Position numbers and translations under genes: made by a program | Shown here: piece by piece, positions 55,503 to 61,573 of the stretch | How positions within the stretch are numbered: the first letter of the stretch is position 1 | How the letters are laid out: each line of letters begins with the position of its first letter | Notes under the pieces: generated by a model | The model's input: the letters and a program-made list of their open reading frames with translations, nothing else | Databases searched by the model: none | What the model was told of the DNA's origin: nothing | DNA from: Hydrogenobacter sp. T-2 | GTDB taxonomy: Bacteria; Aquificota; Aquificia; Aquificales; Aquificaceae | Direction: 5' to 3' | Assembly: GCF_033971325.1 (NCBI RefSeq) | Contig: NZ_CP117180.1 | Location: 1,246,041-1,310,040, forward strand | Length of the DNA: 64,000 bases

Positions 55503-56198
55503 ATGCCAAAGGAGAAAACTCTACCAACTCTTGAGCTTTTCATGGAAGAGCTTTTAAGCCTCTTGCCCTACTTGAGAGAGAGGTATGGAGTGAAAGAGCT
55601 TGGAGTTTTTGGCTCATACCTAAGAGGAGAGCAAAGACAAGACAGCGACCTTGACCTCCTTGTGGACTTTGAAAAGGATATTTCTCTTTGGGATGTTATG
55701 GAGCTTGAGGAGTTTCTCTCTGAGAGGCTTGGAGTAAGGGTTGACCTCATTATGAAAAGCTCTTTGAGGTTTAGACCTCATACCGCAGAAAAGATTCTAA
55801 AAAGCTACGTGCCCGTGATGGAAAACTGGAAGGATATAATAAGGCAAAAGGAGATGCCAAAAAGAGACTACAGGGAATACATAAAAGACATTCTGCAAGA
55901 GTGTGAGTTTTTAAGAAAATACACGCAAGGCATAGAATACGAAGACTTTTTGGAAAGCGACCTACTTAGGCATGCGGTGGTGCGTGCCTTGGAAGTAATA
56001 GGCGAGGCGGTAAAGAACCTGCCAAATGAGCTTTTGGAAAAGTATCCACAGATAGAGTGGAAAAGGGTAAAGGGCATGAGGGACAGGCTGGCTCACGCAT
56101 ACTTTGGTGTGGACTACGAACTTCTCTGGAGGGTGATAAAAGAAGAGCTTCCGAGCTTATGTAATGTGGTAAAGGATATGTTAGATGAAGAAACTTAG
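55503..56198 (+). CDS. Fused MNT nucleotidyltransferase-HEPN protein (copy 1)
   Basis: The 231-residue chain joins two parts usually encoded by separate toxin-antitoxin genes. Residues 8-112 are a minimal nucleotidyltransferase (MNT) with GSYLRG (G37-S38), the acidic pair Asp49/Asp51 and third Asp81. Residues 120-228 are a HepT-type HEPN (DUF86) domain with the RNase motif R193-x4-H198-x-Y200 (RDRLAHAY). In known pairs the MNT antitoxin adds AMP to the Tyr of that motif; here enzyme and target would be in one molecule. Frame and both active sites are intact. Confidence 0.88.
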   Translation: MPKEKTLPTLELFMEELLSLLPYLRERYGVKELGVFGSYLRGEQRQDSDLDLLVDFEKDISLWDVMELEEFLSERLGVRVDLIMKSSLRFRPHTAEKILKSYVPVMENWKDIIRQKEMPKRDYREYIKDILQECEFLRKYTQGIEYEDFLESDLLRHAVVRALEVIGEAVKNLPNELLEKYPQIEWKRVKGMRDRLAHAYFGVDYELLWRVIKEELPSLCNVVKDMLDEET

Positions 56199-56868
56199 CC
56201 AAAGACCAACCCTTGAGCTTTTCATGGAAGAGCTTTTGAGCCTCTTGCCCTACTTGAGAGAGAGGTATGGAGTGAAAGAGCTTGGAGTTTTTGGCTCATA
56301 CTTGAGAGGAGAGCAAGGACAAGACAGCGACCTTGACCTCCTTGTGGACTTTGAAAAGGATATTTCTCTTTGGGAGGTTATGGAGCTTGAGGAGTTTCTC
56401 TCTGAGAGGCTTGGAGTGAGGGTTGACCTCATTATGAAAAGCTCTTTGAGGTTTAGACCTCATACCGCAGAAAAGATTCTAAAAAGCTATGTGCCTGTGG
56501 TGGAAAACTGGAAGGATATAATAAGGCAAAAGGAGATGCCAAAAAGAGACTACAGGGACTATCTTAGAGACATACTTGAAATGTGCCAGTATTTAGAAGG
56601 CAGGTCAAAAAACCTTAGCTTTGAAGAGTTTTTGGAAAATTTAGAGCTTAGGCTATCCTTTACGAGGGCTTTGGAGATTATAGGCGAGGCGGTAAAGAAC
56701 CTGCCCAATGAGCTTTTGGAAAAGTATCCACAGATAGAATGGAAAAGGGTAAAAGGCATGAGGGACAGGCTGGCTCACGCATACTTTGGCGTGGACTATG
56801 AGCTTCTCTGGAAGGTGGTAAAGGCGGAGCTTCCAAGCCTTTGCAAAGTGGTAAGGGATATGCTCTAA
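56185..56868 (+). CDS. Fused MNT nucleotidyltransferase-HEPN protein (copy 2)
   Basis: The 227-residue protein repeats copy 1 in tandem, starting 14 bp inside its 3' end. The MNT part is almost identical, including GSYLRG and the DLD pair. The first half of the HEPN part (about residues 125-165) differs strongly, and the end is again nearly identical with RDRLAHAYF. The duplicated DNA is offset by 682 bp. Both active sites look intact. It converges with mnmG with a 4-bp overlap. Confidence 0.87.
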   Translation: MKKLSQRPTLELFMEELLSLLPYLRERYGVKELGVFGSYLRGEQGQDSDLDLLVDFEKDISLWEVMELEEFLSERLGVRVDLIMKSSLRFRPHTAEKILKSYVPVVENWKDIIRQKEMPKRDYRDYLRDILEMCQYLEGRSKNLSFEEFLENLELRLSFTRALEIIGEAVKNLPNELLEKYPQIEWKRVKGMRDRLAHAYFGVDYELLWKVVKAELPSLCKVVRDML

Positions 56869-59439: not shown

Positions 59440-60090
59440 ATGCATAAAGAACTTGAAGAAATACAGCTCCAGTGTGCTAAAAGGGTGATACAAAGAGATG
59501 ACTTTGAAAAGATAGAGCTTATCGGAGGGATAGACCTTACCTTTGAAAGCATAAAGGAAAACCCAACCCGTGCTTGGGCATCCCTTGTAGTGATAAGGCT
59601 TTCGGACCTAAGGGTAGTTTACCAAAAGGTGGTCCAAGGCGTGGTGGACTTTCCCTACATTCCCACCTTTCTTGCCTTTAGAGAACTTCCTCTAATGCTC
59701 AAGCTCTACCAAGAGGCGGAGCTAAAGCCGGATGTGTTTTTCATAGACGGTCAGGGTATAGCTCACCCTCGTGGCTGTGGTATAGCATCCCACTTTGGAG
59801 TAGAAACTTCCACAGTAAGCGTTGGCGTTGCCAAAACACGCCTCTTTGGTTATGGAAAAGAACCAAACAGAGAAAGAGGGAGCTATTCTTATCTAACCTA
59901 CAGAGGAAAGGTAATAGGAGCAATTTTGAGAACAAAGGATAACACAGAACCTGTATATGTCTCAGTAGGACACAGAATAAGCCTAAGAACCGCCATTGAC
60001 CTCGTCCTTAGGACATCCCTTTACCGAATACCAGAACCCACAAGACTTGCCCACAATCTTCTGCAGAGGGTGAGAAAGGCTAATCTGTGA
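59440..60090 (+). CDS. nfi: Endonuclease V (deoxyinosine 3'-endonuclease)
   Basis: The 216-residue protein carries the endonuclease V pattern: IGGIDLTFE (first Asp), [37 protein letters not shown] and [14 protein letters not shown], with [16 protein letters not shown] at the end. It cleaves one base 3' of inosine in DNA, a lesion favoured at high temperature. The 94 bp after the gene contain a small inverted repeat (AGGGTC-ttaca-GACCCT, 60113-60129) without a T-tract. Confidence 0.95.
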
Positions 60091-60184
60091 TATAATCTTC
60101 TTAGAAGGTTTTAGGGTCTTACAGACCCTTGACATCTTGGCAGTTGAATAGGGTTTTTGCTCTTTGAAGTTAAGGGGGTAGTAT

Positions 60185-60397
60185 TCACTCAAGAGGTTTG
60201 AGAAGTCCCTCCTCGTCCACTTCCATTATGGTGGTCTTTTCTTTGAGTTTTTCCAACTCCTTTAACTTTTTGGCTATTAGCTCTCCCATTGAGGTGTTTT
60301 TCCTTATGCTTTCTATACGCAGGCTCTCCCAGAGGTCATAGGGTAGAGATATAGTGGTTCTCTTAAACTTTTGCCTTTTCTTCTGCTTGCCTCTCAT
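60185..60397 (-). CDS. Small ribbon-helix-helix DNA-binding protein
   Basis: The 70-residue protein has a basic start (MRGKQKKRQKFK) and then a ribbon-helix-helix core: RTTISLPYDLWESLRIESIR, then KNTSMGELIAKKLKELEKL. The last 15 residues are acidic, as in antitoxins. No toxin gene adjoins it, so it may be an orphan regulator. TATAAC lies just before its ATG, with an inverted repeat further upstream that may be its operator. Confidence 0.72.
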   Translation of the reverse strand: MRGKQKKRQKFKRTTISLPYDLWESLRIESIRKNTSMGELIAKKLKELEKLKEKTTIMEVDEEGLLKPLE

Positions 60398-60414
60398 AGG
60401 TTATATTTTAATGC

Positions 60415-60442
60415 CTTTATGCTTTTATGTTTTAGCATAAAG
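60415..60442. promoter_or_regulatory. Perfect 9-bp inverted repeat, candidate operator of the ribbon-helix-helix gene
   Basis: CTTTATGCT and AGCATAAAG flank a 10-base loop, 18 bp upstream of the start of the small DNA-binding gene and over its likely -35 region. Ribbon-helix-helix proteins commonly bind such paired half-sites and repress themselves. Confidence 0.5.
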
Positions 60443-60581
60443 ATGCAGTGATGCTTTGATGTTTTGATGACATATGTCTCAAAGCCTTGTCTCTCAAGGG
60501 TTTAAATTTGACAATACTATACTCAACCTTGCAGGACCTGACACTTTTGGCAAACCACCTTCACTTGAGAGGGGTGCCCCC

Positions 60582-60610
60582 TTGACAAAAGGCTTGATAT
60601 GTCTTATTAT
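60582..60610 (+). promoter_or_regulatory. Sigma-70 promoter reading into the CRISPR-like repeats and beta-barrel gene
   Basis: TTGACA (60582-60587), a 17-bp spacer and TATTAT (60605-60610) form a near-consensus promoter. Transcription would begin near 60617, about 14 bp before the first repeat, like a CRISPR leader, and continue into the gene at 60740. Confidence 0.7.
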
Positions 60611-60630
60611 TCTTTATGTGGTGAGTTGAG

Positions 60631-60708
60631 GTTGCTAATCCACCGTGTGGAGTTGAAACGCGTGTTATAATTTAGTATTGTTGCTAATCCACCGCGTGGG
60701 GGTGAAAC
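60631..60708 (+). CRISPR. Two CRISPR-like repeat units with a 20-bp spacer
   Basis: Unit 1 (60631-60659) and unit 2 (60680-60708) are 29 bp, begin GTTGCTAATCCACC and end GTGAAAC or GTTGAAAC. The core CCAC-cgt-GTGG forms a small hairpin; unit 2 changes the loop and flanking bases but keeps the stem. The 20-bp spacer contains TATAAT and is shorter than normal spacers. No cas gene is in the window. This is a remnant or CRISPR-derived element rather than a proven array. Confidence 0.5.
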
Positions 60709-60739
60709 GTATACAAAACTCTTTAAAAGGAGGTGCAAG

Positions 60740-61507
60740 ATGAAAAAGGCTTTGGCAGTAGGAGCTTTGTTTACCTTGTCAGTTGGCACAGCCAACGCAC
60801 TGGATTTTAGCATCACTCCAGTTGTGGGCAGTTTTCAGCAAAAGGCAAACTACAGAAAAGACGATGGAGAGGAAGGTAAAGTCAAATACGATGGGACCTT
60901 CTATGGATTGAAGATAGGGCTTGGGCACTCCTTTGGTAATGTAAGACTGGAGGGCGACCTATCCGCTTATTATGTGGGCGATGGAAATGTAAAAGTGGAA
61001 CCTTCTGACTATACCTCATCTAAATACAAGCATGTGGAACTTCAAGGAGAAGGCAGAGTGGGATACAAATATGACCGCTTTGAAGGAAATCTAAAGGGAG
61101 TAGCCATAGCAGGATATATCCCTATTGGCTATTCTTTCAGGAAAATGGATGTAGACTACCTTGATGAGAATACTGATGGTTCATACTCTGACGACTACAA
61201 ATATCTATACACTGGCTTAGGCATGAGGCTTGAATACAAGATGTTATATTTGGATGGCAAAGTTTTGCTTCCCCTGAAAAATAAGGTAAAGCTTGATAAA
61301 AGTTATGCTGGGGAAGGTTCAATAGAAAAGGATATGGGTAAAAAGGTAGGATACAATGTATCCGCAGGCATAAAGTGGAAATTACTCACCGCAGGCGTCT
61401 TCTATGAAAGAAGAGAACACAAGAGCTTTTATGACCATATAGATAGATACACTGCTTCCAATGGCAAGGAGGAAAGATTAGGACTGCAAGTGGGCTTTGT
61501 TTTCTGA
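60740..61507 (+). CDS. Outer-membrane beta-barrel protein flanked by CRISPR-like repeats
   Basis: The 255-residue protein has a signal peptide (MKKALAVGALFTLSVGTANA), alternating beta strands rich in Tyr and Gly, and a C-terminal phenylalanine (RLGLQVGFVF), as in small outer-membrane barrels of 8-12 strands. Family unknown. AAAGGAGG lies about 7 bases before the ATG. It has its own promoter and terminator and lies between 29-bp CRISPR-like repeats, of which the outer two are identical. Confidence 0.8.
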   Translation: MKKALAVGALFTLSVGTANALDFSITPVVGSFQQKANYRKDDGEEGKVKYDGTFYGLKIGLGHSFGNVRLEGDLSAYYVGDGNVKVEPSDYTSSKYKHVELQGEGRVGYKYDRFEGNLKGVAIAGYIPIGYSFRKMDVDYLDENTDGSYSDDYKYLYTGLGMRLEYKMLYLDGKVLLPLKNKVKLDKSYAGEGSIEKDMGKKVGYNVSAGIKWKLLTAGVFYERREHKSFYDHIDRYTASNGKEERLGLQVGFVF

Positions 61508-61517
61508 ACCAATTGAG

Positions 61518-61542
61518 GGGGAAGGCAGTAGCCTTCTCCTTT
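61518..61542 (+). terminator. Intrinsic terminator of the beta-barrel gene
   Basis: A 9-bp stem GGGGAAGGC / GCCTTCTCC (one G-U pair) with an AGTA loop is followed by TTT. It lies 11 bp after the stop codon and directly before the third CRISPR-like repeat. Confidence 0.75.
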
Positions 61543-61544
61543 CC

Positions 61545-61573
61545 GTTGCTAATCCACCGTGTGGAGTTGAAAC
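61545..61573 (+). repeat. Third CRISPR-like repeat unit, identical to the first
   Basis: The 29-bp unit starts GTTGCTAATCCACC and ends GAGTTGAAAC, identical at all positions to the unit at 60631-60659. It lies between the terminator of the beta-barrel gene and the 3' end of metG, 914 bp from the first unit. Confidence 0.65.

Follow-up and report, generated by a model that had tools for sequence, protein, structure and literature searches.

Compact genomes of the Aquificales carry several short CRISPR arrays that lie without adjacent cas genes, as orphan or dispersed loci (PMC4227106). The locus described here differs from those orphan arrays (PMC4227106) in that a protein gene lies between its repeats and its spacers have been lost. 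In the CreTA and ectopic-repeat modules (PMC9458426, PMC8501985), a mini repeat pair, partly degenerate, likewise sits beside a gene, but our locus shows no guide match, encloses a long gene for a secreted protein, and has a full leader. Viral single-repeat units and Racr (PMC10651486; Faure et al. as cited in PMC8616872) resemble it in having solitary repeats that could recombine with arrays; our locus differs in being chromosomal and linked to a leader, and no virus with its gene was found in the viral collections searched. IS insertions that inactivate CRISPR-Cas, reported for cas genes (PMC10359306), also place foreign DNA within a CRISPR locus. They differ from the present case, where no transposase is found around the gene. 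Integron gene cassettes likewise occupy a promoter-proximal platform and are flanked by repeats that share one orientation, but the similarity is a resemblance only, our locus having neither an integrase nor an att structure. Among the open papers searched, none was found to describe protein genes that lie between intact CRISPR repeats and are served by a CRISPR leader.

The locus lies in a 64,000-nucleotide stretch of the genome of the heat-loving bacterium Hydrogenobacter sp. T-2, here called the window, and is laid out on the forward strand as leader-R1-20 nt-R2-ORF-R3, with no ordinary spacers. Elsewhere in the window (55503-56868) are two adjacent near-duplicate genes that by eye appear to encode fusions of an MNT-type nucleotidyltransferase with a HEPN-like domain. 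The 29-bp units singled out in the initial annotation were verified: R1 (60631..60659) and R3 (61545..61573) are identical in sequence and match the consensus exactly, R2 (60680..60708) has 3 mismatches, and the number of such units expected by chance in the window is 0. The interval between R1 and R2 (S1; 60660..60679, forward strand) contains, as read from the sequence, an extended -10 element, TGTTATAAT. A genome-wide search recovered 12 copies of the unit. Five are exact and, at a distance of 65-67 bp from each other, form a regular array at 1,654,330-1,654,622 with spacers of 36-38 nt; over its last 60 bases, the leader of this array nearly matches the sequence preceding R1. The other seven comprise the three window units and four solo copies that are near-exact. 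In the sister genome G007, the same exact repeat is found downstream of Cas1b-Cas2. Hence, the unit is not a mere dispersed repeat but belongs to regular arrays, and the three units in the window are true CRISPR repeats. The intervals at the locus (20 nt and 836 nt) lie far from the 33-52 nt of 509 spacers in about 42 arrays examined. Since uniform spacers are wanting, we regard the locus as a former CRISPR array, an assignment that draws on comparison of its leader, repeats, and orthologous sites.

The leader unit (60127..60630, forward strand) is 95% identical to that of the five-repeat array (1,654,593-1,655,126). It represents a dispersed element of about 530 bp, in which a small ribbon-helix-helix (RHH)-like gene on the opposite strand is followed by AT-rich sequence and then by the leader, and which here ends at R1. 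About nine full or partial copies are present in the genome, one of which, at 503 kb, adjoins the Cmr (type III-B) operon, while two precede arrays built of a second type of repeat; related leaders and repeats are found through the family. Within the leader is an intact sigma-70-type promoter, TTGACA-17-TATTAT (60582..60610, forward strand; 11/12 matches), whose position, about -49 from the first repeat, is conserved in most of 45 leaders. At least 10 of 12 promoter positions match in 35 of these leaders, versus 4% in shuffles, with 4 of the 35 best matches sitting further upstream. The near-identity of the leader and the conservation of its promoter are as expected of a CRISPR locus. The folded 5' leader is no more stable than shuffled sequences, and in the G007 copy of the locus the promoter is spoilt by a small deletion.

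The divergent RHH-like gene (60185..60397, reverse strand) encodes 70 aa and gave weak Pfam RHH scores, below the cutoff. Its homologues occur, likewise divergently, upstream of CRISPR array leaders in several genera (loci L060, L014, L016, L062-L064, L066, L083, L095, L101, L107, and L116-L118), making it a candidate leader-linked regulator. AT-rich iterations of the GATGCTTTGATG type sit between this gene and the leader (60410-60475) and are replaced in some copies by a TACGGTTTTACGG-type iteration (sites compared: window 60410-60475, L016 element B, and L108); this exchange has the look of a joint switch of operator and regulator. At the left end of the unit, both in the window (60090-60140) and at the matching position of other copies, a TATAAT is followed first by a small hairpin and then by a conserved TGACATCTTGGCA; the stem of the hairpin varies among copies, with pairing retained in most.

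Comparison with relatives reveals what preceded the present arrangement. The genes that bound the locus, nfi (endonuclease V) and metG, are 97-98% identical in DNA between the window and G007, where they enclose the RHH gene, the leader, ten exact repeats that form a regular array, and then a gene for a 78-aa membrane protein. In a second relative, G003, contig C33 ends exactly at R3, so that the left side lies beyond the contig, and the 3' flank up to metG is the same; the window gene is absent from this assembly, which is 99% complete. In a third, G011, an array adjoins metG and no gene is present there. From these three comparisons, R3 is most readily understood as the terminal repeat of an ordinary array that once stood here, with the gene occupying what was probably its spacer region. 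The suggestion of the initial annotation that a gene had been inserted into an old array, with its call to compare relatives with and without the gene, is thereby supported: the array is intact at the same locus in G007, the ancestral end repeat persists in the gene-less G003, and the array of G011 is free of the gene. Both the array ancestry of the locus and the position of the gene inside the array are, at the level of comparative sequence analysis, established.

The enclosed gene (60740..61507, forward strand) encodes a 255-aa orphan that, from its signal peptide and C-terminal Phe, is a probable outer-membrane beta-barrel protein; its score against the TDE1717 outer-membrane family was weak (21.9 bits, below the curated cutoff of 135). 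Searches across 136 genomes of the phylum recovered no homologue beyond marginal scores (best E = 0.0019), and those in species-genome, viral, phage, and plasmid collections recovered none. Rfam gave no match. A single-sequence structure prediction reached a pLDDT of 32 and was left unused, as was its fold search. Codon usage is on the low side yet within range (rank 6 of 51), and the gene thus bears no clear foreign signal. A transposon was ruled out, there being neither a transposase nor long inverted repeats around the gene. Its start codon lies 31 nt downstream of R2 and is preceded by a strong ribosome-binding site, AAGGAGGTG (60727-60735). An 11-bp hairpin is predicted by folding 3' of the gene (about 61515..61543, forward strand), but it lacks a proper T-run and is absent from the listed terminators.

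As had been remarked, no cas gene lies nearby; this is right locally, and the genome carries a I-B operon near 532-541 kb (about 770 kb from the locus in contig coordinates, with a repeat different from that of the window), a Cmr operon near 497-502 kb, and two Cas6 genes, the second at 1,432,723. Both Cas6 genes were matched by TIGR01877 and missed by PF10040, and one of them has a solo repeat (1,434,149) at a distance of 0.7 kb. In the predicted fold of R1 and of R3, a 5-bp stem precedes the 8 nt GTTGAAAC, an arrangement that is usual for Cas6. The three changes in R2 alter the handle and the predicted fold, and this repeat folds less well. Cas6 cutting of the transcript of the gene at the repeats, another possibility raised in the initial annotation, is plausible as a prediction, given the correct repeats, the promoter, and the two Cas6 genes of the genome.

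We consider it rather probable, though well short of certain, that the locus is a collapsed, recombining array in which a foreign or relocated gene was captured between the second and the end repeat, placed under the leader, and is transcribed into an RNA that Cas6 can cut. Transcription would start from the conserved leader promoter or from the extended -10 element in S1; as only 31 nt separate R2 from the start codon, the most likely place for the promoter is within R2 or upstream of it. Both R1 and R2 would be part of the transcript, as would R3 if transcription does not stop at the hairpin, and each of these could be cut by one of the two Cas6 enzymes. The resulting mRNA would have a 39-nt 5' end, made up of the 8-nt repeat handle and the 31 nt that include the strong ribosome-binding site, while its 3' end would carry a repeat hairpin. 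Leader transcription, Cas6 cutting, and recombination at the locus are what we infer.

Arrays elsewhere offer a clue to how the gene entered. Several regular arrays of G007 correspond to solo repeats in G000, and G000, G007, and G011 differ in which left and right flanking genes are paired at the array units (genes named by eye): a pgl-like gene is followed by an array and a thiF-like gene in G007 versus a solo repeat and a Sir2-like gene in G000, and in G011 the nuoN side is joined to metG. The rearranged array sites in G000 are mostly solo repeats (loci L014-L018, L022-L024, L060-L069, and L083). Solo repeats and reshuffled flanks fit recombination between dispersed leaders and repeats. The gene probably arrived by recombination involving the repeats, through exchange between dispersed arrays or on an incoming element with a repeat, and the same process would have collapsed other arrays here to solo repeats. 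Given such recombination between dispersed leaders and repeats, repeat-mediated capture is the most likely route of entry. The idea that the repeats serve as recombination targets, raised at the outset, is thus consistent with the collapsed arrays and their reshuffled flanks but unproven for the window gene: the outer flanks of the locus are not rearranged and a direct sign of repeat-mediated recombination is for that reason lacking there, and no donor of the gene was found in the collections searched.

The main alternative to repeat-mediated capture as described above is the footprint of a mobile element, in which an element with a solitary repeat entered the array by homologous recombination, as has been proposed for viral single-repeat units according to a review (PMC8616872). 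The orphan status of the gene and the presence of a divergent R2 beside an exact R1 and R3 would suit such an event, and viruses of these hosts do exist, being matched by array spacers. However, no virus or plasmid with the gene or the exact repeat was recovered from the viral, phage, and plasmid collections, and the sole viral contig on which a related array occurs is possibly chimeric in its assembly. We judge this explanation improbable. That contig, IMGVR_UViG_3300017562_000001 (L138 and L139), has terminase and portal genes together with two opposed arrays bearing a host-family repeat; G011 array spacers match it at about 97%, and it may have been joined at spacers during assembly. A more serious competitor, though still unlikely, is that the locus is a mere relic, where the array decayed and a gene with its own promoter landed by chance, the repeats being irrelevant to its expression. 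The other collapsed arrays here have left solo repeats that are also near-exact, and the intactness of R1 and R3 is consequently no proof of function; S1 does offer an extended -10 element, and in other arrays, too, genes start 16-60 nt after the last repeat. Against this, the leader promoter is the only conserved strong one, and the start codon lies so close to R2 (31 nt) that even an mRNA driven from S1 would start at about R2 and, if unterminated, would reach R3. It is highly improbable that R1-S1-R2 forms a CreTA-like mini-array whose guide RNA represses the adjacent gene. Two repeats, one of them degenerate, do adjoin a gene as in those modules, but S1 is just 20 nt long, the product is a 255-aa secreted protein rather than a small toxic RNA, and the locus is far from the cas operons, with no linkage to a type I effector. 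A guide of this type was rejected on the missing match of the pseudo-spacer to the promoter of the gene: the longest local match of S1 is 7 nt, with none of at least 8 nt on either strand.

Two further genes, both for small membrane proteins, are found between repeats of such arrays, one in the genome of the window and one in another genus. At locus D of the window genome, the gene is bounded by a repeat on one side and the end repeat on the other and is now split by an IS; it is homologous to the membrane-protein gene at the window locus of G007, whose own D array has no such gene. In G014, of the other genus, the eighth repeat is followed by a gene for a 106-aa membrane protein and then by a degenerate end repeat; the gene points in the direction of the array. 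The 78-aa gene at the window locus of G007 comes after a degenerate repeat whose score was reached by 1 in 2000 shuffles. The distance from a repeat to the start codon in these cases ranges from 3 to about 31 nt. In L108 (G030), a 1.6-kb gap between repeats holds a gene that by eye resembles an Rpn-type PD-(D/E)XK transposase and a second stretch of array. The enclosed genes number only three, and many ordinary arrays also have a gene that starts shortly after them, so that the case for a capture system is not made. It is improbable that the dispersed leader-bearing arrays of the family act in general as gene-capture sites, at which membrane-protein genes would be moved between repeats by recombination, expressed from the leader, and released by Cas6 as separate mRNAs.

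If repeat-mediated capture is the correct reading of the window locus, CRISPR repeats would act in these genomes as homology for gene capture and for the reshuffling of the chromosome. If Cas6 cuts the mRNA, the locus would provide a naturally occurring example of the crRNA machinery acting on a coding transcript.
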